This document shows, piece by piece, positions 5,460 to 37,944 of a stretch of 41,884 bases of DNA. A model generated the notes under the pieces. That model searched no databases. It was not told where the DNA came from and was given only the letters and a program-made list of their open reading frames with translations. A program made the position numbers and the translations under genes. Source of the DNA: a virus; the IMG/VR virus record IMGVR_UViG_3300028590_000998, positions 1-41,884 of that record; one strand, given 5' to 3'. How positions within the stretch are numbered: the first letter of the stretch is position 1; each line of letters begins with the position of its first letter.

Positions 5460-5487
5460 AAATAAACAGATTGTTTATAACTGACAA
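5459..5487 (-). promoter_or_regulatory. Leftward early promoter with operator in its spacer
   Basis: On the minus strand TTGTCA (5487-5482) and TATTTC (5464-5459) are 17 bases apart, a plausible sigma-70-like promoter. The perfect palindrome AAACAGATTGTTT (5464-5476) lies between the two boxes, so a bound repressor would block RNA polymerase. It serves the gene starting at 5426 and probably the whole leftward operon. Confidence 0.6.
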
Positions 5488-5496
5488 GGGAGGGCG

Positions 5497-5532
5497 AAAA
5501 AAAAGGCAACAGATTGTTACTCTGCTGCCTTT
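5497..5532 (-). terminator. Rho-independent terminator of the repressor transcript
   Basis: A 12-base stem (5502-5513 with 5521-5532, one G-U pair) and a 7-base loop are followed on the minus strand by eight T residues. It lies just after the repressor stop. The loop side contains a near-copy of the operator (CAACAGATTGTTA, 5507-5519). Confidence 0.85.
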
Positions 5533-5553
5533 CGATGGTGCTGTGAAGGGTGT

Positions 5554-5949
5554 TCAGGCCTCTTTTGGTTCATCCTCTTCAGGCGGCTGCGAGGTCCATT
5601 CCTTAAGGTTGCGCGTATGCTCGCGCACCGCATTGCGGAGCGGGGCGTCGAGCGAGAGATAGTCTCGCCAGAAGTCGCGTTCACCGGCGGGCACCGTGAA
5701 CGCCGTTTCGCCAGGGAGGAAGAGGTCCGCAGCATCGACGTCGAGCGCGCGGGCGATGCTGACGCGGTATCGATCGGTCAGCTGCCGCTCTCCGCGCTCC
5801 AGCATGCCGAACATCTGCGCAGACAGGCCTACCTTGGCCCCTGCTTCTTCGAGCGTGAGATCGCGCTTCTTGCGCCAGTAGCGGATCCGGTTGGGGAGTT
5901 CGTCGATCGCCTTTGCCATAGGCGTATGCAAATAGTGGATATTCGGCAT
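5554..5949 (-). CDS. XRE-family phage repressor (CI-like)
   Basis: A 131-residue repressor with an N-terminal helix-turn-helix: RIRYWRKKRDLTLEEAGAKV, then GLSAQMFGMLERGERQLTD (residues about 21-60). The C-terminus is acidic and lacks the Ser/Lys peptidase of LexA-type CI proteins, so induction would need another mechanism (inference). The ATG at 5949 follows a GGGGA ribosome-binding site; an internal ATG at 5919 is possible. It is transcribed divergently from the Cro-like gene, has its own terminator, and is the obvious candidate to bind the AAACA-N3-TGTTT palindromes. Confidence 0.88.
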   Translation of the reverse strand: MPNIHYLHTPMAKAIDELPNRIRYWRKKRDLTLEEAGAKVGLSAQMFGMLERGERQLTDRYRVSIARALDVDAADLFLPGETAFTVPAGERDFWRDYLSLDAPLRNAVREHTRNLKEWTSQPPEEDEPKEA

Positions 5950-6026
5950 CAAGCTTATCCCCTGTTATGTTTCGTTTTGCGATTCCCGGCTGGACAAGAA
6001 CGAAACAGATAGTTTAGTTTTTGGCA
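5950..6026. promoter_or_regulatory. Divergent immunity control region with operator-like site
   Basis: A 77-base AT-richer gap between the repressor and the Cro-like gene. It contains AAACAGATAGTTT at 6003-6015, one mismatch from the palindrome at 5464-5476, and a TGTTTCG half-site near 5969. Promoters in both directions are expected, but no pair of boxes stands out clearly. Confidence 0.6.
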
Positions 6027-6377
6027 ATGCTCAATCTGGGTGCCTTGAAACTCCGCCGCTGGCGTCTGCAAACGCTGACAACCTGTCCCGACACGGGACG
6101 GGCTAAGTCGTTGACGCAAGAGGAAATGGGCAGGCGGGCCGGGGTCTCGTCGATGATGATCAGCCTGTTGGAGAAGGGCGAGCGCACGCCGGGTTTCCGG
6201 CTTGCGCTGCGGCTCAACCAGATGGGCGTTTGCGCAGTTGAGGATTGGGCGAGCAAGGCCCGCTGCATCGCGTGCGGGATAGCGCTGGGCCGCGACGCAC
6301 CGGATTGCGCCGCGGAGGATTGCGAGTGGCGCGAGAGCGAAGCGGCCGTGGCCACGGGCGAGAGGGCGGCGGCGTGA
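6027..6377 (+). CDS. Cro-like helix-turn-helix regulator with zinc-binding-like tail
   Basis: A 116-residue protein starting at the ATG at 6027 (a TTG at 6021 is the alternative). SLTQEEMGRRAGVSSMMISLLEKGERTPGF is a typical XRE helix-turn-helix. The C-terminal part carries CIACGIALG and CAAEDCEW, two Cys pairs suggesting a zinc ribbon. As the first gene rightward of the repressor it occupies the cro position. It ends in a GTGA overlap with the next gene. Confidence 0.75.
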   Translation: MLNLGALKLRRWRLQTLTTCPDTGRAKSLTQEEMGRRAGVSSMMISLLEKGERTPGFRLALRLNQMGVCAVEDWASKARCIACGIALGRDAPDCAAEDCEWRESEAAVATGERAAA

Positions 6378-6577
6378 GGTTCCGGCACTGGCTGACCGGC
6401 GAGATGATGGGCCAGCGCTACGCGCCGGGATCACAGGCGGATACGATTGCAGATCCGGCGCCGAAGGTGCGCAAGGGTAATGAGTGGCTCAATGTGCCGC
6501 CACTGAACACGTCCCCATTCGCAGCGTTCGAGCGCCAGCGCGCCGCATTCATCTATCGCGGCGTCGGGCCGGGCTGA
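6374..6577 (+). CDS. Small hypothetical early protein
   Basis: A 67-residue frame from the GTG at 6374, which overlaps the previous stop. It begins VRFRHWLTGEMMGQRYAPGS and ends with AFERQRAAFIYRGVGPG. No motif is recognised. The overlap with the regulator and the 4-base gap to the primase support its being real. Confidence 0.6.
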   Translation: MRFRHWLTGEMMGQRYAPGSQADTIADPAPKVRKGNEWLNVPPLNTSPFAAFERQRAAFIYRGVGPG

Positions 6578-6581
6578 ACTC

Positions 6582-7760
6582 ATGGCCGGGGGGCAACTCG
6601 ATCCTCGTCAGCTGCAGGACCGGGCGGCGAAGGTCCGTGAGCGCGTAGCGATCAGCGCCGTGATCGGCGGTGACGTCAAGCTGCGCAAGGCGGGCACGCG
6701 TGAGCAGACCGGGCTGTGCCCGTTCCATGCCGAAAAGCGCGACGGCGCGTTCATGGTCAATGACGACAAGGGCATATTCCACTGCTTTGCCTGCAAGTCG
6801 GGCGGCGACGTCTTCGACTATCTGAAGCTGCGCAAGGGCACGCCGTTCATGGAGGCCCTGAAAGAACTCGAAGCCGGAGCCGGTATCGACTGGACCAACG
6901 CCGCGGCGAAACCCGAGCTGGACGGCGCTGCCGAGCGCCGCAAGCGCAAGTCGCGCCAAGACGCAGCGCGCCGACGGGCGGATGCCAAGGATATGTGGCT
7001 GACCGCGCAGCCGGGGCTGGGCTCGCCCGCGCAGGAGTATCTTGAGGCACGCGGCATTGACTTTGCGGGCCTTGGCCACTTCCCCGGATCGATCCGATTT
7101 CGGCCCGATTGCTACAATGTCGAAGCGAACCGCAGCTTGCCGGCGATGGTTACGTCGATTGTCAGCCTGTCGGGTGACTTCATGGCGGTGCATCGCACCT
7201 GGCTGACCAAGCAGCGGGGCAGTTGGATCAAGGCGCCGCTGGAAAAGCCCAAGATGGTGTTGGGCGATTTTGGCACCGGCTCCATCTCGATCTGGAAGGG
7301 CGGGCAGCGAAAGTCGCTGCAGGACGTGGCGCCGGGCACGATGATCGCGATCAGCGAAGGGATCGAGGACGGGCTGAGCGCGGCGATGAATGCGCCGGAG
7401 CTGTATGTGCGGGCCGCGATCAGCCTGGACAACATCGGCAATGTGGCGTTGCCGTCGCAGGCTGGGAGCCTGATCCTCGTCCTGCAGCGAGACAAGGAAG
7501 ATCGGGAGCGGCGCGCTGCGCGATGCCGCACGCTGGCGATGGGGGCGTTCGGCGAAGTGCATGCCGAATATCTGCGGCAAGCGGCGCATCACGAACAGTG
7601 CGCTGCCGACATCGAGCGTACACTGGAAAGAGCGATTGCCCGGCACCAGCAGGCGGCGCGTACCGACGGCAGCCGCCGCGAGGTCAAATGTGCGTGGCCG
7701 AGCGAGGGCTACAAGGACTTCAACGACGAGCTGCGCGGCGTGCGCATGGAGGGGGCGTGA
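6582..7760 (+). CDS. DnaG-type phage DNA primase
   Basis: A 392-residue primase that would make RNA primers for phage DNA replication. The N-terminal CHC2-type zinc ribbon has Cys 46, His 49, Cys 68 and Cys 71 (CPFHAEKRDGAF, then FHCFACKSGGD). A Toprim-type catalytic region follows near residues 250-305: MIAISEGIEDGLSAAMNAPE supplies the acidic Glu, and SLILVLQRDKED the acidic pair. No helicase motor is fused, and the separate P-loop protein at 8274-10139 probably fills that role. It is shorter than bacterial DnaG (about 600 residues), as usual for phage primases. The ATG at 6582 is followed directly by the expected N-terminal helix. Confidence 0.9.
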   Translation: MAGGQLDPRQLQDRAAKVRERVAISAVIGGDVKLRKAGTREQTGLCPFHAEKRDGAFMVNDDKGIFHCFACKSGGDVFDYLKLRKGTPFMEALKELEAGAGIDWTNAAAKPELDGAAERRKRKSRQDAARRRADAKDMWLTAQPGLGSPAQEYLEARGIDFAGLGHFPGSIRFRPDCYNVEANRSLPAMVTSIVSLSGDFMAVHRTWLTKQRGSWIKAPLEKPKMVLGDFGTGSISIWKGGQRKSLQDVAPGTMIAISEGIEDGLSAAMNAPELYVRAAISLDNIGNVALPSQAGSLILVLQRDKEDRERRAARCRTLAMGAFGEVHAEYLRQAAHHEQCAADIERTLERAIARHQQAARTDGSRREVKCAWPSEGYKDFNDELRGVRMEGA

Positions 7761-8104
7761 TGGCAGGATGGAGCCTTGAGCCAAGCGGCGCACATGCGAC
7801 GCCGACCGGTCGGGTGCGCTACGCGATCTGGGTTTGGACTGATGCGGATGGGCCGCGCCGCATTCCGTGCGCCGTCATTGCGGCACTGGCGAAGACAACC
7901 TTCGCTAAGGACGCGACCTGCCAGCAGCGCCCGTTCCTGAAGACCCATAGCCGCTCATTGCGGCGCGTGGCGCAGCTGCATGACCTGATCGATGAAGATA
8001 ACCGGCTGACTGAGCGGGGAAGCGTGTTGCGCTTCACCTTTCTGCGACGGGCTGGCGTGCTGGCTGGCTGGGAAACCGCGCACGGCGAGACGGTGCCTTT
8101 CTGA
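7760..8104 (+). CDS. Hypothetical early protein
   Basis: A 114-residue protein from the ATG at 7760, which shares one base with the primase stop (TGATG). It contains a strand-like YAIWVWTDADGPRRIP, then a basic segment (FLKTHSRSLRRVAQLHDLID) and a C-terminal basic-aromatic part. No family is recognised. Its place between primase and helicase suggests a replication accessory role, by context only. Confidence 0.65.
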   Translation: MAGWSLEPSGAHATPTGRVRYAIWVWTDADGPRRIPCAVIAALAKTTFAKDATCQQRPFLKTHSRSLRRVAQLHDLIDEDNRLTERGSVLRFTFLRRAGVLAGWETAHGETVPF

Positions 8105-8277
8105 TGCGCGAACCCGTACCCACGCTCCCCATGGACCTGCCCGAGCTGCCCGACCCGCGGCCGACGCCGCCGGGCCTCAAGCGCTGCAAGTTCTGCCGCG
8201 CGCTGTTGCCGCGCGACGGCGCCGAAGAATCATGGGGCGCCTGCGATGAATGTCTTGAAGCGGCGGAGTTCGAGTGA
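8104..8277 (+). CDS. 57-residue zinc-ribbon protein
   Basis: The frame MREPVPTLPMDLPELPDPRP is followed by CKFCRALLPRDGAEESWGAC and DECLE: two CxxC pairs about 20 residues apart, as in a small zinc ribbon. It starts at an ATG overlapping the previous TGA by one base and ends in a GTGA overlap with the replication ATPase. This coupling on both sides is the main support. Confidence 0.65.
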   Translation: MREPVPTLPMDLPELPDPRPTPPGLKRCKFCRALLPRDGAEESWGACDECLEAAEFE

Positions 8278-10139
8278 CCGACAACGTGACATCGATCGCG
8301 AATGCGCTGCGCGGCGCGACCGCGGCGCCGGATTTCACCGGGGGCGAGGGCGATGAGCCATTTCAGTTCCTGCCCACGGGATGCCCGATCAGCATCCTGG
8401 GCAAGGATGGTCTGATCGTCCACCTGATCGACTACAACTATCAGCTGCTGGCGATGAAGCCGCGTGAGATGGGCAAGGGCGAGCTGGCGCTGATCTGTGG
8501 CGGCGAAGCGTGGCTGCGCGACAAGTACCCGGCGTTCAACAAGGCCGATCCGCCCGAGGTGATCGGTTTCAACCAGGCCAAGGTGCAGAGCGCGTTCGTG
8601 CACGCGGCATCGCAGATCGGCATCTTCTCCCCCGTGGGCAAGGTGTTGGGGCGCGGTGCGCATCGGCGGCTGCTGGACGATGCGCTTGTCCTGCACCTGG
8701 GCACCCGCGTTCTGCTGGTCGGCGCGCAGGACGCGATGGGCCGCAAGACGATGACGATCACCGAGCGCAAGCCGGGGCCGATCGAGGACAAGATCTATCC
8801 GGGCCTGCCCAAGCTGTCCGCGCCGGCACAGGAATCCAGCACCGCGGCGGAGGCGCAGCGGCTGCAGGCGCTGTTCGGAAAATGGTACTTTTTCGCGCCA
8901 GACATCGCGCCGCTGCTGCTGCTGGGCTGGTGCGGGCAGGCGCTGATTTGCGGCGCGTTCGAATGGCGCGCGCATGTCTGGCTGACCGGTGAGACCGCCG
9001 CGGGCAAATCGACGCTGCAGAAGGTGATCCGCGCGCTGCTGGGCGATTGGGGAATGTTCACTGGCGACGCGACGGAGGCTGCGGTGCGGCATGTGCTGGG
9101 TGACGACACGCTGCCGGTGATGATCGACGAGGCCGAGGGCGACGACAAGCCCGAGAAGCAGAAGGCGATGATCAACCTGGCGCGCAAATCCTCGAGCGGG
9201 GACAAGATGCACCGCGGATCGAGCGACCAGACCAAAGGCGGGCAGGAGTTCACCGTGCATTCGGCGTTCCTGTTCAGCAGCATCCTGCACGCGCCGCTGG
9301 ACCCGCAGGACCGCAACCGTTTCGGCATCCTGGCGATGCGGACCATCCCCGAAGATGCCGATGAGCCGATGCTCGACCTGCGATACTGGACAGAGGCGGG
9401 GCGGCGGATGCAGCGCCGCATGCTCGACCAGTGGCCGCGGTTCGACAAGACCCTGCGGATCTACAAGGACGAGATCAAGTCGCTGGGCTTTCAAGGCCGC
9501 TGGCGGGAGACGTTCGGCATCCTGCTGACCTGTGCCGACATGCTACTCTACGAAACCGCGCCTCAGGACGCTCCGGTCCATGACGAAGAGGCATTCGGGC
9601 GTGCGACGCGCTGGGCTGCACTGTGTGCACCGCTGATGGAGCGGGGGAGGCAAGAGGCCGAGGACACGACGACACGCTGCATCACGCACCTGACCAGTTC
9701 GCTATTGCCCGCAATGTCGGGGCATCATCAGGAGACGGTCGGCCGCTGGATCAGGCGGGCAGTGACGCCCGACGAACAGGGCGCATTCGACCGTGGCGCG
9801 CGCGAGAAGTTGCTGAACCATGGTCTAGCCGTGGTGAACATCCACACTACGCCGAAGGGCGCATGGGGCGCGGACGCCAAGTTCAGCTTTGGAGACCAGC
9901 TGTATGTGCTGGTGGGAAGCAAGACCAACGCGGAGCTGAAGAAGCTGTTCGGAGGCAGCAAGTGGTTCGACGGCGGCTGGGCGCAGGCGCTGCAGGCCGC
10001 GGCGTGGAAGGGCGATGACGGGCAGCTGGAGGCGATCGAGGCCAAAGGTCCGGTGAAGTTCCGTTTCGGCGGATCGCCGGAATGGGCGACCGCGGTGCCC
10101 ATTGAAGCTCTGATCGGGCCGATTGAGTGGAGGATGTGA
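8274..10139 (+). CDS. Phage replication ATPase / helicase-like P-loop protein
   Basis: A 621-residue protein starting with GTG at 8274. The ATPase core shows Walker A GETAAGKST (from about residue 238) and Walker B LPVMIDEAE (about 282-290), followed by RKSSSGDKMHRGSS and a FLFSSILHAPLDPQDRNRF segment with an arginine-finger-like Arg. This fits the DUF927/D5-type replicative helicases of phages and plasmids. The N-terminal 230 residues have no recognised domain, and the C-terminus (KTNAELKKLFGGSKWFDGGW) is probably a DNA-binding region. With the primase it should form the phage replication core, using a host DNA polymerase. The exact helicase superfamily is uncertain. Confidence 0.82.
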   Translation: MTDNVTSIANALRGATAAPDFTGGEGDEPFQFLPTGCPISILGKDGLIVHLIDYNYQLLAMKPREMGKGELALICGGEAWLRDKYPAFNKADPPEVIGFNQAKVQSAFVHAASQIGIFSPVGKVLGRGAHRRLLDDALVLHLGTRVLLVGAQDAMGRKTMTITERKPGPIEDKIYPGLPKLSAPAQESSTAAEAQRLQALFGKWYFFAPDIAPLLLLGWCGQALICGAFEWRAHVWLTGETAAGKSTLQKVIRALLGDWGMFTGDATEAAVRHVLGDDTLPVMIDEAEGDDKPEKQKAMINLARKSSSGDKMHRGSSDQTKGGQEFTVHSAFLFSSILHAPLDPQDRNRFGILAMRTIPEDADEPMLDLRYWTEAGRRMQRRMLDQWPRFDKTLRIYKDEIKSLGFQGRWRETFGILLTCADMLLYETAPQDAPVHDEEAFGRATRWAALCAPLMERGRQEAEDTTTRCITHLTSSLLPAMSGHHQETVGRWIRRAVTPDEQGAFDRGAREKLLNHGLAVVNIHTTPKGAWGADAKFSFGDQLYVLVGSKTNAELKKLFGGSKWFDGGWAQALQAAAWKGDDGQLEAIEAKGPVKFRFGGSPEWATAVPIEALIGPIEWRM

Positions 10140-10462
10140 TGGAACGCAATAAGACCTACTATCAGCAGCACCCAATGGGCACCGGCTCGGGGCTACGTCC
10201 GCCCACGATGACGGTAAGGCAGCTGATCGATCAGCTGGCCGAGCTCGATCCCGAACTACCAGTCATCATTCGCTCGCCGCACTCTGGCTGCTTCGGTGCG
10301 CGAATGGGCTACGCGATCGACGGCGCGAAGCGCGAGACGCTCGACGAGCAGACCGAGCACTACCCCGCGACGACATGGTTTGACGAAGAGCGGGGCATCG
10401 ACGTACCGCAAGAGGCCTACGATGAGACAAGGCCTGCATGGGACGGCGTCGTCATCGAATGA
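10139..10462 (+). CDS. Hypothetical early protein
   Basis: A 107-residue protein from the ATG at 10139 (TGATG junction with the ATPase). MTVRQLIDQLAELDPELPVI (residues about 24-43) resembles the opening of small phage proteins that begin with a leucine-rich helix and a strand, followed by IRSPHSGCFGARMGYAID. The C-terminus is acidic. Function unknown. The stop overlaps the methyltransferase ATG. Confidence 0.7.
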   Translation: MERNKTYYQQHPMGTGSGLRPPTMTVRQLIDQLAELDPELPVIIRSPHSGCFGARMGYAIDGAKRETLDEQTEHYPATTWFDEERGIDVPQEAYDETRPAWDGVVIE

Positions 10463-11073
10463 CAACGGACCTGTTCGCGGGTCCCCAGCTGGCGCCGGAT
10501 TCCCCGCGCCCGCAGCCGATACCGTTAGCCCGGGCCTTCGACCATCTGCGGCTGTTCGGGTACCGGGTCATCTATGCCGACCCGGCGTGGAACTTCGACG
10601 GCGGCGGCGCCCGCAACGCGCGCGAGCACTATGCCTGCATGTCGATCGAGGACATCAAGGCGCTGCCGGTCGGCCAGCTGGCGGACAAGCACTGCGCGCT
10701 GTTCATGTGGGTGACGGACCCGTTCCTTGAAACCGCGTTCGACGTGATCCGGGCTTGGGGCTTCCGCTACAAATCGGTAGCGTTCCATTGGGCGAAGCGG
10801 ACCAAGCTGGACAATGGCTGGCATATGGGGACCGGCTATGGCACTCGCGCGAATGTCGAAACCTGCCTGCTCGCGGTCAACGGTGAGATCGGTCTGCCCA
10901 AGAACAGGGACGTGCGCCGCCTGATCGTCGAACCTCTGCGCGAGCATAGCCGCAAGCCGGACCGCGTGCCCGGCGACATCGAGCGGCTGTACGATGGCCC
11001 CTATGTGGAGTTGTTCGCGCGCACGCGGCGGCCAGGCTGGGACAGCTGGGGCAATCAGACGGACTTGTTCTGA
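10459..11073 (+). CDS. MT-A70-family DNA adenine N6-methyltransferase
   Basis: A 204-residue methyltransferase expected to put a methyl group on N6 of adenine in DNA. YADPAWNF (residues 39-46) is the DPPW-type catalytic motif with Ala in the third position, seen in many phage members. FMWVTDPFLETAFDVIRAWG and FHWAKRTK follow in the usual order, with a SAM-binding-like NVETCLLAVNG near residue 135. The ATG at 10459 overlaps the previous stop (ATGA). It probably protects phage DNA from host restriction or marks it; no cognate restriction enzyme is nearby. Confidence 0.88.
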   Translation: MTTDLFAGPQLAPDSPRPQPIPLARAFDHLRLFGYRVIYADPAWNFDGGGARNAREHYACMSIEDIKALPVGQLADKHCALFMWVTDPFLETAFDVIRAWGFRYKSVAFHWAKRTKLDNGWHMGTGYGTRANVETCLLAVNGEIGLPKNRDVRRLIVEPLREHSRKPDRVPGDIERLYDGPYVELFARTRRPGWDSWGNQTDLF

Positions 11074-11117
11074 TACCCGGACCCGTGGCAGCTTCCGCCG
11101 CAAGGGGGATCGAAGCC

Positions 11118-11303
11118 ATGGGCCTTCCAGCAACGCAGAAGCGGTTGCCGCGCGAATATGCCGACGCCACGCCACCCTCGCCGCCGGCGGCGTCGAAGGC
11201 GCCGATGATTGCGGCAGTCGCCGGTGTGGGTGTGGTGCTGGCGTTGATCATCGGGTGGCTGCTGTGGCGGCGGAAGCGAGGCCGGGCCAAGGTAGATTCC
11301 TAG
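11118..11303 (+). CDS. Small single-pass membrane protein sharing its N-terminus with the large internal virion protein
   Basis: A 61-residue protein: a 28-residue polar, Pro-rich head, one membrane segment (MIAAVAGVGVVLALIIGWLL) and a basic tail WRRKRGRAKVDS that should stay in the cytoplasm. The head (MGLPATQKRLPREYADATPP) matches the first residues of the 1019-residue protein starting at 32074, and the first 15 bases are identical. Its stop overlaps the stop of the opposite-strand gene within one CTAG. A holin-like or membrane-recruitment role is possible but unproven. Confidence 0.7.
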   Translation: MGLPATQKRLPREYADATPPSPPAASKAPMIAAVAGVGVVLALIIGWLLWRRKRGRAKVDS

Positions 11304-11965
11304 GCGGCCATGCGCGCCTGTATGACCGGCCCCCACTGGTCGGCCATGGCATCCGCGATCCCCCGGTAGAAGCGCGAGCGCTCGGCCGCCCTGATCTCAC
11401 CGTGCCTGCCCCAACCCGAATGGCGATGAACGCGCGCGGCGCGACCGTTGACGATCTTCGTCGGGGTGAGCGGGGGAAGGTTGCGCAGCCAGAGGCCGGT
11501 GCGCTTTGTCTCACCATGGCCGAACTGCCAAGGCTGGATGAACTGCGCCGGTTCGGCGTAACCGCGCACGCGCTGCTTTGCGTGACGGTGCATGATCGGG
11601 TTTTCGACTGCGACGTGGGGAATGTTTTGGACGTTCCACAGGTGAGAGAACAGGGCCGCGGCCTCGTCCAGTTCGGCCCACATCGCTTCGCGCGTTCGTC
11701 CGGGGGGCGGCGCGGTCAACCAGCGCACGCCGCTGTTGCAGAGCCGGGTGCAGGGCGGATGGGCGACAACGAGCAAATCCCAGCCATCGTTGAGGATGTC
11801 GCGCACGTCACCGCGAATGTGGCGGTTGCTGCCGCGTTCGTCGGGCCGCAAGTCGCAGGACCACGCATCATAGCCCCGGCGCAGAAAGGCGTCACGGACG
11901 GTGCCGGAGAATTCGCACGCGACCAGCACCTGAGGCGCGCGGAACAGATCGAGGTGCTGGCTCAC
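11300..11965 (-). CDS. Short cytosine-C5 methyltransferase-like protein
   Basis: A 221-residue protein with a Rossmann SAM-binding start (VLVACEFSGTVRDAFLRRGY, residues 13-32), an acidic CDLRPDE loop, and HPPCTRLCNSG (69-79) in the position of the catalytic Pro-Cys motif of C5-cytosine methyltransferases (Cys 72). A later VENPIMH matches the ENV-type motif. It lacks the large target-recognition domain of typical enzymes, so it is either a compact phage form or a different SAM enzyme. The GTG at 11965 overlaps the upstream stop (GTGA). Confidence 0.72.
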   Translation of the reverse strand: MSQHLDLFRAPQVLVACEFSGTVRDAFLRRGYDAWSCDLRPDERGSNRHIRGDVRDILNDGWDLLVVAHPPCTRLCNSGVRWLTAPPPGRTREAMWAELDEAAALFSHLWNVQNIPHVAVENPIMHRHAKQRVRGYAEPAQFIQPWQFGHGETKRTGLWLRNLPPLTPTKIVNGRAARVHRHSGWGRHGEIRAAERSRFYRGIADAMADQWGPVIQARMAA

Positions 11966-14310: not shown

Positions 14311-14311
14311 C

Positions 14312-15726: not shown

Positions 15727-15747
15727 TTCGGCCTCCATTTGCCGGGG
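15727..15747 (-). promoter_or_regulatory. Recurrent translation-initiation leader, copy 3
   Basis: 21 bases identical to 15157-15177, ending four bases before the ATG at 15723, with GGAGG as Shine-Dalgarno. Confidence 0.65.
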
Positions 15748-15767
15748 CGCCGTCTAGCGGCATGGCG

Positions 15768-15797
15768 AAACAATATGTTTATTTTTATGCCCGTCAA
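15768..15797 (-). promoter_or_regulatory. Minus-strand promoter overlapped by an operator-like palindrome
   Basis: On the minus strand TTGACG (15797-15792) and TATTGT (15775-15770) are 16 bases apart. The palindrome AAACAATATGTTT (15768-15780) covers the -10 box, as expected for repressor control. Another TGTTT half-site lies near 15803. It would drive the accessory operon 15723 to 11300. Confidence 0.65.
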
Positions 15798-15978
15798 GCG
15801 GTTTGTTTCCGCCCCAACTCAACAACTTCGCCGTGCAGCGCCGCACAGCGGCGCGGTGCGCACGGCGGCCGCATCAACACCACGCTCCTCGGGATTCCCT
15901 CCGCAGCCCGGACCCGGACCCGCCGATTACAAGCATATGCGGGGCGCTATGGCGGCGTTCGGATTGGGTCGGGGGGGT

Positions 15979-16213
15979 GTTCTCAATGTTCCGACTTGGG
16001 CGGAGCGTGTTCTGTTCTAAATGACGTGTTATCAATGGGATAGATCAATGTTCCGTTGTTCCGGTGATTGAAGAGGTGCCGCACAGGTGCGCATACGGTC
16101 GCGCCTCACGCATACGCGCGAGATCGTGGAACATGCGGAACAGCGCGCTAAGTCATTGATAACACGTACTCACTATGTTCTTTGTGATGTTCTGAAGATG
16201 GAACATTGAGAAC
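15979..16213. repeat. 235-bp set of three nested inverted repeats with one centre
   Basis: Outer arms: GTTCTCAATGTTCC (15979-15992) with its exact complement at 16200-16213. Middle arms: ACGTGTTATCAATG (16024-16037) with its exact complement at 16154-16167. Inner arms: TGTTCCGTTGTTCC (16049-16062) with a near-complement at 16128-16142. All three pairs are centred within one base of 16096. Twelve GTTC/GAAC tetranucleotides occur in the interval. It lies in the gap between the accessory operon and the terminase genes, suggesting a replication origin, packaging start or multi-site operator. Confidence 0.8.
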
Positions 16214-16240
16214 GTCTGCCAAGCCGCTTGCGTTGAATTT

Positions 16241-16253
16241 AAACAATACGTAG
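16241..16253 (+). promoter_or_regulatory. Operator-like motif, late-region copy 1
   Basis: AAACAATACGTAG followed by CTTTC. It matches the AAAC arm and the GT(A/T)GCTTT tail of the copies at 24611 and 37932. It lies 734 bases before the terminase genes. No convincing -35/-10 pair is seen. Confidence 0.45.
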
Positions 16254-16974
16254 CTTTCCGTCGCCATGGGGACGGTCCGGATTATCGCAGCGAATATTCT
16301 AGGGGGTGGATATGCCGCGCCCGCTGTCGATGTGCGCTCCGGACGGGTGTTGGTCGGGTGTGTGGGCGCGGGTTCCCCGGATTTTTCGGGCGGGAGCGCG
16401 AGCGAGCTGGTCGGCCAGGCCGTGCGGATCGTGTCGATTGGGCGCGCACCGTGCGGCTCGTTGGCGGGTCTCGGGAATGGCGGATTTCCGCCGTTTCTGG
16501 GAGCGCGCTGTGCGCATGTCGCACGGGGCTATGTCGCACGGCGCAGTCAAGCTATTGTCTCAGCGTCGTTTTTCGAGGGCAGTCCGCGAACTGCCAGTTT
16601 TCGGACTGCGCCGCCTCGCGCAGCTGGCCGGGGGGTCCCCGCGGCTCAGCGCGCGGGCGCGGTAGGGGGGGGCGACCCCCTCGCCGGTGCGCGCGCGTGG
16701 TACCTCCCCCGTCGCGTAGGTGCGATCGGGCGCGGAGCGATCTTTTCGGATCGACCATGCGGCTCGGAAGCATGCCGGTTTGCCCGCCAGGGCCGGGGCT
16801 GGGCGGCGAACCTCAAAAGCTCAAGTGGGGTCGGGGGTTTGGGTGGCTCAAAGCCAGTCAATCCCGTGGGCGCAACGCCGAAGAGATCAGACGGGGCAAC
16901 GGGTCAGGGTGCAAAGCGCCTCTGCGAACCGGGGGGATTGCGTAAGCCGCTGACGCTAGGCGGGGGTCGGAATC
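16254..16974. other. 720-base stretch without a convincing gene
   Basis: Open frames exist in several phases, but none shows protein-like composition, a ribosome-binding site or coupling. The region is G-rich, with several runs of six to eight G, and has a 15-base tandem duplication at 16516-16545 (ATGTCGCACGGGGCT, second copy slightly changed). It may be a leader, a decayed gene or part of a packaging region. Confidence 0.5.
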
Positions 16975-23759: not shown

Positions 23760-24604
23760 TGAGCGACGGACAGGGCGGCGAGGGCGGCGGCGCGGGCGCC
23801 GCGGCGATCGCGGCGGGCGGGGGCGGCGACGGCGGGCAGGGCGGCGGCGCCGCGCCAAGCTGGCGCGAGGCGCTTCCGGAAGCGCTGCGCGGCGAGGCGA
23901 GCTTTGTCAACTTCGCTGATGTCGGCGCACTGGCGCAGGGATATCTGGACACGAAGCGCACGGCGACCGAGCGGCTGGACAGCTACAAGACCGACGACGG
24001 GCTCAAGAAGTTCGGGGAGATCGTGCGGCCTGCGGCAGCAGCGGATTATGAGATCCCCGTGCCCGACGGGCAGGATGCGACCATGGCCGAAGCGTTCCGG
24101 GCCTTCGCGCATGAGACGGGACTGCCTCCGCAGTGGGCGAGGGGTGTTGCCGAGTTCTATAACGGCAAGCTGGCGGAAGCGGCCGCGGCGGCCGAGCAGG
24201 CCAGTCAGGTTGAAGTCGATCAGCTCCGCCAGACCATGGGTGCGGAAAAGTTCAATGCCGGGCTGCAGTCGGTGCGACAGATGCTCGAAATCAGCGGCGT
24301 GGAGCTGCCCGCCGACGACATGGCGGCGCTCGACGCGAAGCTGGGCAGTGGCAACCTGCTCAAGTTCATGTTCAACATGGCGGCGCGCGTCGGCGATCCG
24401 GCGCCGGTGGAAGGTGCCGGCGCCGCTGCGGGTGCCGGTTCCGGCATGGGCGCGATGACGCCGGAGCAGGCGAACGCCCGGTGGAATGTCGCGGTGCAGG
24501 ACGCCAACTGGCGCAAGCAGTCGCTGATCGCGGGCACGCCCGAGCACAAGGAGGCCGCGCGACTGCAGAACCTGATCGTGCAGGGACGGGCCAAGCAGGC
24601 TTGA
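23759..24604 (+). CDS. Capsid scaffold (assembly) protein
   Basis: A 281-residue protein with a low-complexity Gly/Ala N-terminus, then SWREALPEALRGEASFVNFA, a stretch common to scaffolds of short-tailed phages. A helical middle (VAEFYNGKLAEAAAAAEQAS) follows, then a Gly/Ala linker and a C-terminal helix that should touch the capsid protein. It lies directly before the capsid gene, as expected. TGATG-type contact with the previous gene. Confidence 0.8.
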   Translation: MSDGQGGEGGGAGAAAIAAGGGGDGGQGGGAAPSWREALPEALRGEASFVNFADVGALAQGYLDTKRTATERLDSYKTDDGLKKFGEIVRPAAAADYEIPVPDGQDATMAEAFRAFAHETGLPPQWARGVAEFYNGKLAEAAAAAEQASQVEVDQLRQTMGAEKFNAGLQSVRQMLEISGVELPADDMAALDAKLGSGNLLKFMFNMAARVGDPAPVEGAGAAAGAGSGMGAMTPEQANARWNVAVQDANWRKQSLIAGTPEHKEAARLQNLIVQGRAKQA

Positions 24605-24610
24605 CAAATT

Positions 24611-24623
24611 AAACGGATTGTAG
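24611..24623 (+). promoter_or_regulatory. Operator-like motif, late-region copy 2
   Basis: AAACGGATTGTAG followed by CTTTT, seven bases after the scaffold stop and ten before a terminator hairpin. It has the same orientation and tail as the copies at 16241 and 37932. TTGACA at 24601-24606 lies nearby but without a fitting -10. Confidence 0.5.
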
Positions 24624-24632
24624 CTTTTGTGC

Positions 24633-24667
24633 GGGGCCGGTTCGGGGGGAATCGGCCCCTTTCATTT
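24633..24667 (+). terminator. Terminator-like hairpin before the capsid gene
   Basis: Stem GGGGCCGGTT (24633-24642) with AATCGGCCCC (24650-24659, one G-U pair), loop of seven, then TTTCATTT. It would stop or attenuate transcription between scaffold and capsid genes. Confidence 0.7.
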
Positions 24668-24844
24668 CCCCCGAAGACACCGCCCTGACTTCCCGCGCAG
24701 CCGACGCGGACCCGGGTGCTACGCCGCGAAAGCAGCGGCCGACGACGCGGGGCGTTCCCGCGAGAGCGGACCCGGCCAATCGGCCCGCCTTCCCGCTCGG
24801 AAATCAACAGACAGTTGTTTTTTGAGCGATTGGAGGAGCCAGCA
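24668..24844 (+). promoter_or_regulatory. Leader region of the capsid gene
   Basis: A 177-base noncoding stretch with a strong ribosome-binding site (GGAGG at 24832-24836). It also holds an AT-rich tract around 24806-24823 containing AACAGACAGTTGTTT, a looser relative of the operator motif. A separate capsid promoter would make sense after the terminator, but no clear boxes are seen. Confidence 0.4.
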
Positions 24845-25813
24845 ATGGCAGATTGGCAGAATACGGTGGCAACCGTCGCCTTCGAAAAGGCGGTCGAGTT
24901 CCAGCTTAACGAGCTGTCGCCAGGTTACGAAACCATGTGCGATTTCAAGGGCGGTGTGGTGGGCGAAAAGGTCCAGATCACCGACCGGTTCAGCGACCTT
25001 CCTTACGACGAGATCGAGGATCGGCTCGGCGATACCGACCTGCCCGAAACCGATGTGGAGCGCCGCTGGATTCACATCCCGAATCGCCTGCGCACCGGCA
25101 CGTTTCTCGATCGTGACGACCAGCACGCGACGGAAATCCCGCTCGACAGCCCGCTGGCGATCGGCGTTGCGCGCGCGATCGGCATCGCGCGTCGCGACCA
25201 GTTCCTGGTCGGCTTTCATGGCAACGCCTATGTCGGCAAGGAAGGCACCACCGCCGTGCCATTCAAGGCCGCCAATGTGTTCGCCGCGGACTATGGCGAG
25301 ACGTTGACGCAGTACAAGGGGCTGACTGAGAATAAGCTGATCGGTCTGCGCAAGAAGGCACGCCAGCTGCTGATCGATCCGCAGGACCCGACCAACAGGC
25401 TGCACATGGGCATCACGGCGGAAGAGATCGAGGATCTGCTGAAGATCGATCACTATGTCAGCCGCGACTTCAACCCGGACAGCCAAGTGCGCAAGCCGCT
25501 GTCGGCCGGCGCGAAGCAGGCGCTGCAGGACGGCGAACCGACCGACTTCCTGGGCATCCATTTCGTGCCGATGGAGTTCACCAACACCAAGGCCTACCCG
25601 AAGGCGGCGGCGCTGGGCCTGAACGGCAGCGGGCATCGTCGGTGCCCGGTGTGGATCCCCAAGGGTATTTCGGGACGCCAGTGGCTGGGCATCGAGACGC
25701 ACCGCGATATCCGCCCGGACAAGAACCACGCGACGCAGTTCACGGCGTATTCGAAGCTCCGCTATTCGCGGAACAACGAAGACCTCGCGTTCATCGTCGA
25801 GTGCGCGGACTGA
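24845..25813 (+). CDS. Major capsid protein
   Basis: A 322-residue coat protein. It follows the scaffold gene, has the strongest ribosome-binding site of the late operon (TTGGAGGAGCC), and shows the N-arm and core pattern of short-tailed phage coats (FQLNELSPGYETMCDFKGGV; RRWIHIPNRLRTGTFLDRDD; FLGIHFVPMEFTNTKAYPKA). It would form the icosahedral shell. An in-frame extension runs upstream without a stop but lacks its own ribosome-binding site, so the ATG at 24845 is preferred. Confidence 0.88.
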   Translation: MADWQNTVATVAFEKAVEFQLNELSPGYETMCDFKGGVVGEKVQITDRFSDLPYDEIEDRLGDTDLPETDVERRWIHIPNRLRTGTFLDRDDQHATEIPLDSPLAIGVARAIGIARRDQFLVGFHGNAYVGKEGTTAVPFKAANVFAADYGETLTQYKGLTENKLIGLRKKARQLLIDPQDPTNRLHMGITAEEIEDLLKIDHYVSRDFNPDSQVRKPLSAGAKQALQDGEPTDFLGIHFVPMEFTNTKAYPKAAALGLNGSGHRRCPVWIPKGISGRQWLGIETHRDIRPDKNHATQFTAYSKLRYSRNNEDLAFIVECAD

Positions 25814-32074: not shown

Positions 32075-35000
32075 TGGGCCTTCCAGCACAAGCCCGCAGG
32101 CTTTCGCGCGAACTGCCCGATGCCGCGCCACCGCCGGCACCGGCGCCCGGCTTCTTCGAGGGTGTGTGGGCATCGGCTCGCGCACCGGATGCACGGGCAG
32201 TCCGCAACGCACAGATCGACACCGCTGAGCAGGATGCGATCCACGATGTCGCCAACCAGCTGATCGCCGCGGGCGTAGATCCGGCTGCGCTACGCCGCCA
32301 GAATTGGGCGGAAGGCCTGCAGGACCGGATGCGCGGCACGTGGTCGGTTGAGGCAGTGCTCGCTGAAGCTGCGAAACGCCGCGCCGCCGATCCGAAGGCC
32401 TTTGCCAGCCTGGACACTGATCCGGTGCAGTTCCGAGCGAAGATCACGGCGCCGATCGACCAGCGCTATAGCGGCATCCTCGAAACTGCGGGGCGGGCGA
32501 CAACAGCGCAGACCATCGTCGGCGGCTTGTGGTCGGGCGCGGCCGAGCCGGAGAATGTCGGCACCATGGCGCTGGGGGCGGGCGGCAAGACGATCGCCGA
32601 GACGGTGATGCGCAACATGCTGTTGCAGGCGCGGGTCGAAGCCGTGACCGCCGTTCCGCGTGCGCTCGACAAGGCTGGACGTGGCGAGGACACCTCGACC
32701 GGCACGCTGCTGGCGGAAAGTGCGATGGCCGTGGGCGGCGCAGCTGCGCTGTCCGGGCTTGCCAAGGGTATCGAGCTTGGGGTGCCTAAGGCGGGCGATG
32801 CGATCGCGACCGCGCGGGAGCGTGCCATCGCAGCGTTGTGGGAGCGGTTGCCGGATAGCGTGAGGAAGAAGTGGGGCAGCGCCGCCCAGCTGCCCGACGA
32901 CGAGCTGCCGGGCCTGGCCGAGTTGGTGACCGGCGCCGACAACATGACGCCGGATGAACGGGCAGCCGTCGCCGTGCTGCGCCGCGAAGCCGAGATCGAC
33001 GCGAGCAACCCGTTCATTGCGGATGGCGCGGGAACGTTGGCGCACCGCGAGGGCGTGGCGGAGGCGATGCGGCGGATCCTGTCCAACATGCCTGAGCCAC
33101 CGCCCGCCGCAGTGGCGATGCCAAGCGGATCGCCCGTGCCGCGCCTGCGTGGTGGAACGGCGATCGCGACCGGCACCGTGGGCGTCGAGGGCGGGACCGT
33201 GCTCAAGTCGCGTATCCGGCAGGTCGAGAGTTCGGGCAGCAATACCGCCCGCAACCCGAACAGCAGCGCGTTGGGGCCGTATCAATTCATCCGCTCGACG
33301 TGGCTGACCCTGTACAAACGTCGGTTCGGCGCGACGAACGAAAGCGACGACGCCATTGCGGCGCGGCGTACGGATCCGCGCATCAACGAAGTTCTGGTCG
33401 ATGACCTGATCGGGCTGAACGCGCGGGCGCTGCAGCGGGCAGGACATGCCGCCGACGCAGGTAACCTGTACCTTGCGCATTTCGCGGGACCGGAAGGCGC
33501 CAAACGGCTGCTGGATGCCGATCCGCAGCTGAGCGCTCGCGAGGTGCTGGGCGCGGGCGTGATCCGTGCAAACCCGTTCCTCGAGCGAATGAGCGCGGGC
33601 GATGTGGTGCGATGGGCGCACCGCAAGATGGGTGGCGCGCACGCCAACGTCCAGAGCGGCGCACCGTCGCTGCGCGACAGGCTGGACGCGGAGCTTGAGG
33701 CCGTCGACGCGGACCTGGCGCGGCTGGACGCAGAGGCGGGGGATTCGCCCGAAATCCGGGACATTCTGGACGATGTGGCGGACGAAGCCGCGGTTCCGGG
33801 TGACGATATCGATGCGCCCGTCTTAGACGGACCCGCTGGGAGGGCCGTTCAGCCCATGGCCGATGCCGGGCCATCGGTAGGCGTGCTGGCAATCATCCCG
33901 CCCGTGCGCGGGATTGTGCGAGACCGTGGGCGCTCACTCGCCAAGATCGACGATATCGCGCGCGAGTTGGGGGCGACCGGCGAGGACGTGCGCGCAGCGC
34001 TTCAGCAGCTGGTAGCCCAGGGCGAGTTGAGGCGAAACCGCAAGACCGGGAGTTTCATGCGCCCGCCTGTAGACGGGCCGGTCGATATCCTGAAATGGAT
34101 TGCGCGGCGCGGCGGATTGCATCCGAGCGGCGCGCGCGGCGGCGGCGCCGATGGCTTCAAGGGCCATGGTCTGGGCAAGGCCCAGATCGTCGGCGGGAAG
34201 CGGATGGGCGGACGCGACATGGACCGTTTCGTTCCCGGTGCCGGACCATTGCTGCGCGACAGCGGCATGGGGCTGGATGAAGCGGCCGAGGATCTATGGA
34301 GCGAGGGCTATTTCCGCGAGCGGCCGACCGAAGCCGAGCTGATCGACGTGCTGGAAGACGCGGTGCAGCACGGCAAGAAGTTCTACCCCATCGGCGACGA
34401 ACCCGAGTTGCCCGCGCCGTTCATGGACAAGGACGGATGGCAGGAGGGCGAGCGCGCCTATTATGAGGCGGGCGTGGCGGACGCGGCCGAGGACCTGGGT
34501 CTGACACTCGACGCTGAAACGCTGGGCGCTATCGCGCGGTTGCGGCGCGGGCAGGAGATCGACGCGGCCGACGCGGTGCTGATCCATGTCAACCAGGAGC
34601 TGGACGGCGCGCGCTGGGACGCGCTGGCGGAATCCGACGAAATCGACTATGAGGCGATGTATGACGATCTCATCCGATCAGATGCGCGCGAAAGTGGCGC
34701 TGGCGGAGAAGGCAGCGGCGGACAAGCGGCTGTCGCCGGAGACGCGCGCGCGCAACCAGCGGGCGGCGGAGATCGGCCGGCAGGTTCTGGCCTCAGGCAA
34801 GCTCTAAGCGAATTCGACGATCCGCACGGCAGCGGCGCGGATCTGCAAATCGAGAGCGTCGCGCATGATGTGCGGGCGGGTCTAGACCTTGGCGAGCAGG
34901 CCGATCCCGCGATTGCGGCGCGACAGCAGCAGGAAGCCCAGCTGAAAGCGGATTCGCCGTTGCGGGCGAAAGCCGATCAGGAAAGCACGATCGGCGCACC

Positions 35001-35133
35001 GCTATTCGACACGGCCGACCAGTTCGGCTTTCGCCTCGATGACGAAGGCGATGTCGTGAACGCTGCCGATCTGTTGGCGGAGTTCGACGCCGATGACGCG
35101 GCGATCCAGACAATCAAGGACTGCCTGAAATGA
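32074..35133 (+). CDS. Large internal virion protein with lytic transglycosylase domain (T7 gp16-like)
   Basis: A 1019-residue ejection protein. A lytic-transglycosylase domain begins near residue 379: RQVESSGSNTARNPNSSALG (Glu 385 as catalytic acid), PYQFIRSTW, and DAGNLYLAHFAGPEGAKRLL. It should open the peptidoglycan for DNA entry. Around residues 619-666 a winged-helix-like segment (IDDIARELGATGEDVRAALQ) is unusual for a virion protein. In T7 gp16 the muramidase is at the N-terminus, whereas here 375 residues precede it. The first 24 residues match the membrane peptide at 11118 (15 of 24 identical). Confidence 0.83.
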   Translation: MGLPAQARRLSRELPDAAPPPAPAPGFFEGVWASARAPDARAVRNAQIDTAEQDAIHDVANQLIAAGVDPAALRRQNWAEGLQDRMRGTWSVEAVLAEAAKRRAADPKAFASLDTDPVQFRAKITAPIDQRYSGILETAGRATTAQTIVGGLWSGAAEPENVGTMALGAGGKTIAETVMRNMLLQARVEAVTAVPRALDKAGRGEDTSTGTLLAESAMAVGGAAALSGLAKGIELGVPKAGDAIATARERAIAALWERLPDSVRKKWGSAAQLPDDELPGLAELVTGADNMTPDERAAVAVLRREAEIDASNPFIADGAGTLAHREGVAEAMRRILSNMPEPPPAAVAMPSGSPVPRLRGGTAIATGTVGVEGGTVLKSRIRQVESSGSNTARNPNSSALGPYQFIRSTWLTLYKRRFGATNESDDAIAARRTDPRINEVLVDDLIGLNARALQRAGHAADAGNLYLAHFAGPEGAKRLLDADPQLSAREVLGAGVIRANPFLERMSAGDVVRWAHRKMGGAHANVQSGAPSLRDRLDAELEAVDADLARLDAEAGDSPEIRDILDDVADEAAVPGDDIDAPVLDGPAGRAVQPMADAGPSVGVLAIIPPVRGIVRDRGRSLAKIDDIARELGATGEDVRAALQQLVAQGELRRNRKTGSFMRPPVDGPVDILKWIARRGGLHPSGARGGGADGFKGHGLGKAQIVGGKRMGGRDMDRFVPGAGPLLRDSGMGLDEAAEDLWSEGYFRERPTEAELIDVLEDAVQHGKKFYPIGDEPELPAPFMDKDGWQEGERAYYEAGVADAAEDLGLTLDAETLGAIARLRRGQEIDAADAVLIHVNQELDGARWDALAESDEIDYEAMYDDLIRSDARESGAGGEGSGGQAAVAGDARAQPAGGGDRPAGSGLRQALSEFDDPHGSGADLQIESVAHDVRAGLDLGEQADPAIAARQQQEAQLKADSPLRAKADQESTIGAPLFDTADQFGFRLDDEGDVVNAADLLAEFDADDAAIQTIKDCLK

Positions 35134-35375
35134 GCCTGGCGCTGGTAGAATCCCCTCCGTTCGTCTGCTTGCCATGGCGCATCAGGGATCGCGAGGAAGC
35201 GGATCACAGGCACCCAATTGGTGTCGAATGCGTCGAATGCGGGAGGGAAGTCGCGCTACCGCAATATGCGCGTCGCCGTGACGCGAGCTGCCTCTACTGT
35301 GGATTGAATCGAGGGCTAGTGAGGGCGGTTGAGGTCGAGATCGGCGAGGACTGGAGGGCGAAGACGTGTCGCTAG
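35130..35375 (+). CDS. Small zinc-ribbon protein between virion genes
   Basis: An 81-residue protein with CVECGREVALPQYARRRDAS and CLYCGLNRG: two CxxC pairs forming a zinc ribbon. The ATG overlaps the previous stop (ATGA) and the end overlaps the next GTG by ten bases. It is an odd insertion among internal virion genes and may be a co-translated chaperone or a moron. Confidence 0.65.
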   Translation: MSLALVESPPFVCLPWRIRDREEADHRHPIGVECVECGREVALPQYARRRDASCLYCGLNRGLVRAVEVEIGEDWRAKTCR

Positions 35376-37933
35376 GCGTCTGCATCCCCGACCTGATCGA
35401 GCGCGGGAAGATCGGCGAGAAGCATGCGGGCGAGGTTCGCGCGCTCTATGACGAACTGCTGATGCAGCATGAGGGCCGGATGTCGCGCGAGGCGGCGGAG
35501 GCGCTGGCGACACAGCAGACGCTGGCGGCGTGGGAAAAGGGGCTGAAACAGGGGCGGCGCGAGAAGCTGTTGCAGCTCAAGCGCCAGATGGCGATGCTGG
35601 ACGAAGCGCGCACCGGCTATCGTGGCGCGAATGCAGATGGTCCGGTGAGCGGCAAGGCCATGGCCGCTTTTCTCGGTTGGGATAGCCGCGCGCGATACTC
35701 CAACGTCGAGTATCGCGAACGGGCGATCCGGGGCGAGGCGCTGGGGCAGCTGTACGATCTGCTCGCCAAGCACCGCGCCAACCTGCTCGGCAATGTGCGG
35801 CACAAGAGCGACCTGACCGACGTGGTGCGGGAGCTGTTCGGTGCCGATAGCGGCAACCTCAATGCGCGTGAGCTGGCGGACGCATGGCGCGGGGCGAGCG
35901 AGGCGTTGCGTCAGCGGTTCAACGCCGCCGGCGGTGCGATCGGCAAGCGTGAGGATTGGGGCCTGCCGCAGAGCCATGATGCGCTGCGCGTCGGATCGGT
36001 GACGCCAGAGGCATGGATTGGCGAGGTCAGGCCGATGCTCGACCGCGGCAAGATGCTGGACGAGCGCACCGCGTTGCCGCTGACCGATCAGCAGCTCGAT
36101 ACGATGCTGCGCGACGTATACGAGAACATCGTAAGCGAAGGCTGGATCGGGCGGCAGCCGGGAGCGGGCGGGCGCAAGATGCTGGCGAATCGCCGGGCCG
36201 AGCAGCGTGTGCTGCACTTCGCCGATGCGGATGCGTGGATCACCTATAACGACAAGTTCGGCCAAGCCAGCCCGTGGGATGCGATGATGGGGCATGTGCG
36301 CGGGATGAGCCGCGACATCGCCTTGATGGAGATCCTTGGCCCCAATCCCGCCGCCACGGTGCGGTGGATGAAGGATGTGGCGATCAAGGATGCGGCGGTG
36401 CGCGGCACCAACGAGGACCGGCGTGCGGCGACGAAGGCCGGGGACACGATCGACCGGCTGTATGGCGTCATCACCGGCGAGGCCGATCAGGTCGGTAGCG
36501 AGACGCTTGCGCAGCTGGGGTCCGCGGTGCGGCACTGGCAGGGTGCTACCAAGCTGGGCAGCGCCGTGATTAGCTCGTTCAGCGATGTAGGAACGGCTGC
36601 ATTGACGCGAAAGTTCAACGGCCTGGCACGAATGACCGGGCTGGCTGGTACCGCGCACCTTGGTGACATGGCGCGTCAGCTGAATCCGCTCGATCCGACC
36701 GCGCGGCGTACGATCCGGCGAGCGGGGTTCGTCGGTGACGAATTTGCAGGCCGGACCGTCAGTGCTGGCCGTCTGGTGCTGGACGATCTGAGTGGAGGGA
36801 GGTTGGCCGACGACTGGAGTGTTCGCGGCACGGTGCGGAACGGCGCGAAGCTGGTCAACGAGTTCTCACGGCGGTTGGCGGACGGCACGTTGCGCGTATC
36901 GGGCCTCAACGCCTGGACGCAGGCGGGTCGCGAGGCGATGGCGAAGGAGTTCGCTGCCAATTTTGCAGAGCGCGCCGACACGGCCTTTCATGATTTGCCC
37001 GTGGCGTTCCGCGGCTTCTTCGAGCGGTACGGCATGGGATCGCGCGAATGGGATGCGCTGCGCACGACCAAGCCCGACAAGGCGGGCGGCTATGACACGA
37101 TCTGGCCGGCGATGCTGGACGACAAGGCGATCGGCACACGCGTGATGGAAGCCATGCTGACCGAGATCGATTTCGCCGTCCCGACCGGTGGGCTGCGCCA
37201 GCGCGCGATCGTCAGCGGGTACAAGCGCGGCACTATCATGGGCGAGCTGGTGCGCACCGGATTCCAGTTCAAGATGTTCCCGGTGACGGTGATGGTGATG
37301 CACGGCATGCGGATGCTCGATCAGCCGAGCAACTGGCATGCCGCCAGATATGGCATTGGCTTCCTGACCGCTACAACGCTGATGGGGATGCTCTCGCTTC
37401 AGCTAAGCGAGCTGGCCAAGGGGCGCGATCCTATTGCGCTGCGAGACGAGGAAGGGAACTTCCGAAAGGAGGTTGTCTGGAAGTCGATGCTGAAAGGCGG
37501 AGGGCTTGGCGTGTTCGGCGATGTCGTGAACAGTTCGACCAACCAGTACGGACAGGATGTCGGCGACCTGACGGCAGGGCCGGGTTTCGGCACGGTGCAG
37601 AATGTCGCCGACCTCGCCTGGGGCAGAAAGGCCAAAGATGGCGAGGGCAATGAGGTGCGCGTCCACGATGTCGCCCGCTTCCTCAAGCGCGAGACGCCCG
37701 GCGGCTCGATCTGGTATCTGCGCGCCGGCTGGGAGCGGCTCGTGCTCGATCAGTTGGGCGAGTGGCAGCACGAAAGCTACGCCGACAGCTATGAGCGGTT
37801 GAACCGCCGTGCGCGCGAGGATGGCACTGCATACTGGATGCCGCCCGGTGCGCGAGGCCCGGTGCGTGCGCCCAATCTGGCTGGTCAGACGCCAGCTGGC
37901 GAAGCGGTTGACGGCACCGCCTCTCCAAACTAA
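35366..37933 (+). CDS. Very large internal virion / ejection protein
   Basis: An 855-residue protein starting with GTG at 35366. It is mostly helical, with a charged N-terminal region (EVRALYDELLMQHEGRMSRE) and one hydrophobic stretch near residues 660-680 (IGFLTATTLMGMLSLQLSEL). The C-terminus is Pro-rich. Large proteins of this kind follow the gp16-like gene in several temperate short-tailed phages and act in DNA ejection. The size, the amphipathic stretch and the position support that role. Confidence 0.77.
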   Translation: MSLGVCIPDLIERGKIGEKHAGEVRALYDELLMQHEGRMSREAAEALATQQTLAAWEKGLKQGRREKLLQLKRQMAMLDEARTGYRGANADGPVSGKAMAAFLGWDSRARYSNVEYRERAIRGEALGQLYDLLAKHRANLLGNVRHKSDLTDVVRELFGADSGNLNARELADAWRGASEALRQRFNAAGGAIGKREDWGLPQSHDALRVGSVTPEAWIGEVRPMLDRGKMLDERTALPLTDQQLDTMLRDVYENIVSEGWIGRQPGAGGRKMLANRRAEQRVLHFADADAWITYNDKFGQASPWDAMMGHVRGMSRDIALMEILGPNPAATVRWMKDVAIKDAAVRGTNEDRRAATKAGDTIDRLYGVITGEADQVGSETLAQLGSAVRHWQGATKLGSAVISSFSDVGTAALTRKFNGLARMTGLAGTAHLGDMARQLNPLDPTARRTIRRAGFVGDEFAGRTVSAGRLVLDDLSGGRLADDWSVRGTVRNGAKLVNEFSRRLADGTLRVSGLNAWTQAGREAMAKEFAANFAERADTAFHDLPVAFRGFFERYGMGSREWDALRTTKPDKAGGYDTIWPAMLDDKAIGTRVMEAMLTEIDFAVPTGGLRQRAIVSGYKRGTIMGELVRTGFQFKMFPVTVMVMHGMRMLDQPSNWHAARYGIGFLTATTLMGMLSLQLSELAKGRDPIALRDEEGNFRKEVVWKSMLKGGGLGVFGDVVNSSTNQYGQDVGDLTAGPGFGTVQNVADLAWGRKAKDGEGNEVRVHDVARFLKRETPGGSIWYLRAGWERLVLDQLGEWQHESYADSYERLNRRAREDGTAYWMPPGARGPVRAPNLAGQTPAGEAVDGTASPN

Positions 37934-37944
37934 ACATATTGTTG
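37932..37944 (+). promoter_or_regulatory. Operator-like motif, late-region copy 3
   Basis: AAACATATTGTTG followed by CTTTT, overlapping the stop of the 855-residue gene by two bases and 65 bases before the tailspike. One mismatch from a perfect palindrome. TTGACG-N17-TAAACA (37908-37936) could form a weak promoter overlapping it. Confidence 0.5.

Follow-up and report, generated by a model that had tools for sequence, protein, structure and literature searches.

The window analysed here is the full 41,884 nucleotides of IMG/VR record IMGVR_UViG_3300028590_000998, a viral sequence with a short-tailed-phage structural module. Seven palindromic sites are dispersed along it, and they are very probably the operators of a 131-aa XRE immunity repressor (5554-5949), spread over the main phage promoters. 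They would cover both immunity promoters, leftward and rightward, as well as the mid-left early promoter, the promoter of the late operon, an internal promoter for the major capsid gene and one preceding the fibre gene. In a lysogen, a repressor dimer would occupy the space between the -35 and -10 boxes (or lie over the -10 at the mid-left promoter) and exclude RNA polymerase. The late structural genes would be silenced directly, and not merely through the loss of early regulators. During lytic growth, a Cro-like protein would probably act on the same sites. From the sequence we infer that the repressor binds the sites, that host sigma70 uses the boxes and that binding blocks initiation.

Seven sites in noncoding gaps

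A preliminary description of the window listed seven 13-mers related to AAACA-N3-TGTTT, and all of them were found where it placed them. The predicted sites and the two regulatory genes are as follows.

5464-5476 (-): outer left operator AAACAGATTGTTT, in a leftward promoter with -35 TTGTCA (minus strand, 5487-5482), centre at +17
5507-5519 (-): inner left operator CAACAGATTGTTA, directly 3' of the repressor gene
5554-5949 (-): XRE repressor, 131 aa (Pfam HTH_3), with operators on both sides
6003-6015 (+): right operator AAACAGATAGTTT, in a rightward promoter with -35 TGGACA at 5991
6027-6377 (+): Cro-like HTH_3 protein, 116 aa, another candidate to bind these sites
15768-15780 (-): mid-left operator AAACAATATGTTT, over the -10 of the leftward promoter TTGACG-N16-TATTGT (15797-15770)
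16241-16253 (+): late-operon operator AAACAATACGTAG, between -35 TTGCGT (16228-16233) and a possible -10, TAGCTT (16251-16256)
24601-24606 (+): TTGACA, the -35 box of the internal promoter for the major capsid gene, conserved family-wide
24611-24623 (+): capsid-promoter operator AAACGGATTGTAG, centre at +16 from TTGACA
37932-37944 (+): operator AAACATATTGTTG, upstream of a 936-aa fibre-like gene

The sites fall in the noncoding gaps 5427-5553, 5950-6026, 15739-16265, 24605-24844 and 37934-38008, and the 37932 site overlaps the TAA stop of the open reading frame 35366-37933 by two bases, as had been stated. The perfect AAACA/TGTTT arms reported at 5464 and 15768 are present, and so is the sequence said to be shared by the late copies (GTAGCTTT, GTAGCTTT and GTTGCTTT). 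The inner left operator lies within an apparent terminator hairpin of the repressor gene, judged by eye, and the right operator is 12 bp upstream of the Cro-like start codon.

At two or fewer mismatches, AAACANNNTGTTT has nine matches in the window against 3.2 ± 1.8 expected, a number reached in none of 100 shuffles. The sites at 16241 and 24611 have three mismatches and are outside these nine. A weight matrix was trained on the three repressor-flanking sites only, with chance levels taken from 40 simulated windows. It placed 15768 third (23.4 bits) and 37932 fourth (21.0 bits), far above chance, with 0 expected in the simulated windows. Five sites, the three flanking the repressor together with 15768 and 37932, are convincing from the window alone. 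Loose consensus matches at 5010, 15796, 22995 and 32613 were not accepted as sites, and a lookalike of the capsid site at 38153 is coding.

A conserved layout with a changing motif

A near-identity search of phage records gave no match to the window, and tblastn of the repressor against phage records gave none either. Relatives were taken from bacterial genomes (Sphingomonadaceae), in which the gene calls are mechanical predictions. About ten syntenic sphingomonad prophages were found, with portal identities of 37-90%. The open-access literature searched held no description of this family or of its layout. The prophage of S. tagetis MG17 lies in a 260-kb contig and is 70-88% identical to the window across most matched stretches. 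All seven positions hold a site in S. tagetis, and the consensus there is GTAAACT-N3-AGTAGAC as against ATAAACA-N3-TGTTTAT in the window. In the pre-capsid gap of G412, G575, G745, G696, G347, G486 and G814, TTGACA (or TTGACG, TTGACT) is followed by yet another palindrome.

The window and its relatives have a common layout. A tandem pair of sites lies to the left of the repressor and a single site to its right; the mid region holds two more, and the capsid promoter and the region 3' of the phrog_684 gene hold one each. In the relatives this layout rests on matrices of about five sites per phage, and a few sites are absent or weak in individual phages among the seven further prophages. The tandem left sites are spaced by about 31-34 bp in the relatives and by 41-43 bp in the window and S. 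tagetis. One motif recurs at the repressor locus and at several promoters, and its sites extend outside the immunity region to the mid region, the capsid promoter and the region after the open reading frame 35366-37933. The late sites of each phage resemble the repressor-flanking sites of that phage, and the whole set shifts together between phages.

In a matrix scoring each motif against each region, none of 20,000 permutations equalled the diagonal for either late gap, although the training seeds were partly chosen by their likeness to capsid sites, which makes this test partly circular. Because some of the relatives' palindromes had first been found through capsid-site similarity, a blind search was carried out, and it cures this circularity. 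The best palindrome family was drawn from the noncoding DNA left of terL only, and the whole record was then scanned. The families discovered in this way outscore shuffles. In eight of nine phages (the window, G412, G575, G696, G745, G347, G486 and G814), the first match outside the training set was in the capsid promoter or downstream of the phrog_684 gene.

Matches that arise by chance or from base composition in AT-rich intergenic DNA would agree with the non-significance of 16241 and 24611 by single-window statistics. This explanation is contradicted by the blind discovery and by the permutation and Mantel tests, and we give it practically no weight.

Link to the repressor and a possible role of the Cro-like protein

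The gene between the operators encodes an XRE protein of 129-156 aa in 13 of 14 phages; in the exception, G288, the wrong open reading frame was picked. Similarity between operator matrices tracks repressor identity (Mantel r=0.58, 0/20,000 permutations, 13 phages), so motif and repressor vary together. These comparisons support the view that the early and late copies form one system tied to the XRE repressor locus. The best match of the 131-aa repressor in the PDB was no better than E=0.0017.

The Cro-like protein (6027-6377) might instead be the main binder, acting as a lytic down-regulator of the late promoters and leaving only the immunity sites to the repressor. Its HTH_3 gene adjoins the right operator, and its recognition helix is repressor-like, most clearly in S. 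tagetis, where SKQMVGHLE in the repressor and SKQMIGHLE in the Cro-like protein are nearly identical. This near-identity means that the sites may be shared by the two proteins. The weakest matches, too, are the capsid and late sites, as a separate late-promoter ligand would have it. On the other side, 15768 and 37932 fit the immunity sites as well as the immunity sites fit each other, and a division of labour between the two proteins needs a distinction that is not visible in the sequence. We consider it unlikely that the Cro-like protein is the main ligand.

Promoter geometry

The centres of the sites keep a regular distance from -35-like boxes. Operator centres in the capsid class are at +16 to +18 from TTGAC, and those of the late-operon class are at +17 to +19 from TTGCG or TTGGC, with G453 irregular. 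The class that follows the open reading frame 35366-37933 has its centres at +15 to +18, with the box unclear in the window and S. tagetis. The mid-left class is at +23/+24 from TTGAC in all nine phages, the left outer class is constant at +17 across nine phages, and the right class is at +17 or +18. The right boxes of G412, G696 and G745 and the late-operon box of the window were read by eye where the script had picked other hexamers. Overall, the distance from a -35-like TTG(AC) hexamer to the site centre downstream of it is 15-19 bp for nearly every site, or 23-24 bp in one class. The sites thus look like promoter operators. Offsets are constant within each class despite unrelated operator sequences, as expected if the repressor excludes polymerase from each promoter.

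The preliminary description proposed a prophage stoperator system. The part that joins early and late sites in one repressor-linked system is upheld by the relatives, but the fixed -35 offsets speak against the stoperator label. True L5-like stoperators would be asymmetric sites in a single orientation, at which the repressor blocks elongation of read-through transcription. The sites do lie in short gaps, and the three late ones are directed along transcription; sites and repressor also co-vary, as in Cluster A phages (PMC6550527). However, L5 stoperators are mostly free of promoters, and the 15-24 bp offset is found here in almost all classes and phages. In most relatives the sites are palindromic, and one arm is degenerate in the late copies of the window and S. 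tagetis. There are only about seven sites, and none was identified within a long transcribed stretch. An L5-like mechanism appears quite improbable.

The alternative named in the same description, that the late copies are phage-specific late promoter elements, fares worse. A phage sigma factor or RNA polymerase would then read them, independently of the repressor. In favour of this alternative, the late copies of the window and of S. tagetis have GTAGCTTT in common, and it covers part of a plausible -10, TAGCTT. Yet each phage has an element of its own next to a constant TTGAC -35 box, and the element matches that phage's own repressor-flanking sites, which disfavours this reading. The proteins scanned included no recognisable sigma factor or RNA polymerase. 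We regard it as highly improbable. The sites are most likely repressor operators within sigma70-type promoters, and neither L5-type stoperators nor phage-specific late promoter elements.

Several observations weigh against a single set of repressor operators. The weight-matrix scan, which singled out 15768 and 37932, left 24611 (11.4 bits, 1.1 expected) and 16241 (8.0 bits, 5.1 expected) within chance; these two putative operators are established solely through comparison with related prophages. The 37932 site is without a clear -35, although relatives have TTG(AC) at the equivalent position. A consensus promoter scan recognises the mid-left promoter only, and the -10 assignments are of low confidence. 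The blind search fails in S. tagetis, where the first new match is coding (41869), and it misses the capsid site of G486. In G347, the site after the open reading frame 35366-37933 is weak and lies farther downstream, and in G814 the site after the phrog_684 gene is about 1.6 kb beyond the gene.

Origin of the late operators

On the portal tree, phages with a capsid-promoter operator form one clade (support 98/95), with a single loss in G453. The late operators were gained once in the clade of the window and lost once. Ten more distant prophages were fetched for the blind test and nine were run. Seven of the nine have a clear palindrome, in the immunity region only; G958 is marginal and G731 has none. 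Late operators thus occur in the window's clade only.

Most sister phages, nine of those outside this clade (G076, G288, G370, G429, G532, G545, G731, G746 and G089), have GANTC at the corresponding place in the capsid promoter, at +8 to +10 counted from the initial base of TTGAC, and GANTC is scarce in most of their records. In G545, G429 and probably G532, a further GANTC lies next to a TTGCG or TTGGC box 3' of the phrog_684 gene. GANTC is the CcrM methylation motif, which is read by GcrA in alphaproteobacteria (PMC3667746). G076, which carries the capsid-promoter GANTC, is an outgroup of the operator clade on the portal tree (82/85), so that GANTC may be the older state. These patterns suggest a change of master at the capsid promoter, which we put forward tentatively and at slightly less than even chances. 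An ancestral GANTC in the capsid-promoter spacer, under host CcrM/GcrA cell-cycle control, would have been replaced once, in the window's clade, by an operator for the phage's own repressor. The operator would then have spread to all main promoters, and one XRE protein would silence the whole prophage at initiation.

The concerted change of a repressor and its scattered sites can be compared across about ten prophages with the same layout and different operators, which amount to a natural experiment. The family also informs how late promoters gain or escape direct repressor control. Such control would explain silent capsid genes in prophages of an understudied environmental bacterial family, and would make immunity groups predictable from sequence.

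The capsid promoter of G580 (L094, locus base ~624) holds a perfect 23-bp palindrome, CGATTTCTCCATAGGAGAAATCG, with no counterpart near the G580 repressor; perhaps it serves a different regulator.

Prophage setting and capsid leader

The structural module comprises terminase, portal, Phage_capsid_2, tail tubular-like proteins, a transglycosylase domain and the phrog_684 structural protein, and replication genes are among the window proteins. A phrog_1 integrase, the XRE repressor and the integrated syntenic copy in S. tagetis mark a temperate phage. Further features are listed below.

702-2045 (-): integrase (phrog_1)
24633-24844 (+): 5' leader of the capsid gene, conserved and apparently structured
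24845-25813 (+): major capsid protein gene (Phage_capsid_2), its start ATG at 24845 placed from leader conservation

The leftward early region includes an acyl-carrier-protein-like gene (Pfam PP-binding, phrog_5934) at 3488-3940 (-). An MT-A70 type adenine methyltransferase gene is located at 10438-11073 (+), and the S. tagetis protein is about 90% identical. Directly upstream of the late promoter, 15972-16213 is a symmetric TGTTC/GAACA repeat array with 32-nt arms, 78% complementary, centred at about 16095 and partly kept in S. tagetis. It could be a replication origin, a terminase site or a set of activator sites.

The capsid leader looks like a structured RNA, and its gap is also present in 15 relatives. 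A GC hairpin follows the promoter. The second hairpin has a fixed GAAAGCA-like loop and a 4-bp stem that is 100% paired, with covariation of 0.61 against 0.11 in shuffled sequences. Fourteen relatives were folded, and in most of them CUCC pairs with the Shine-Dalgarno GGAG in the last hairpin. The leader had no match in Rfam. The stretch 24803-24819 (16.7 bits by matrix) was rejected as an eighth operator, being the arm region of the hairpin at the ribosome-binding site.

Comparison with known systems

The back-to-back XRE repressor and Cro-like genes, with operators shared between them, resemble the lambdoid CI/Cro switch. In lambda, however, the late genes depend on Q antitermination and CI sites occur only at OL and OR, whereas here three late promoters have putative operators of their own. 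In the Burkholderia BcepC6B / Bordetella BPP-1 group, the portal, capsid, tail, phrog_684-type and fibre genes are arranged in a similar order. The pre-capsid gap of BcepC6B is only 9 bp, which leaves no room for an internal promoter and operator.

A few phages, namely P1, L5 and SPbeta, have dispersed repressor operators that are already well characterised. L5 and other Cluster A phages share with the window's family dispersed repressor sites whose motif changes with the repressor across relatives (PMC6550527). Their stoperators are 13-bp, mostly promoter-free and elongation-blocking, with up to about 30 per genome (PMC6550527), whereas the sites here are embedded in promoters. P1 C1 is likewise one repressor with many genome-wide operators, 22 in P1 (PMC8546580). 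The P1 operators are 17-bp and asymmetric and work with the corepressor Lxc and the antirepressor Coi; here, seven palindromes of about 17 bp extend into a short-tailed-phage structural module. In SPbeta, the master repressor MrpR acts on a repeated element (SPBRE) in many prophage promoter regions (PMC10516654). MrpR has a tyrosine-recombinase fold and most SPBRE genes have no known function, whereas the repressor here is an XRE protein and its putative targets include the capsid gene. P1 C1 and SPbeta MrpR/SPBRE come closest in logic to the system proposed here.

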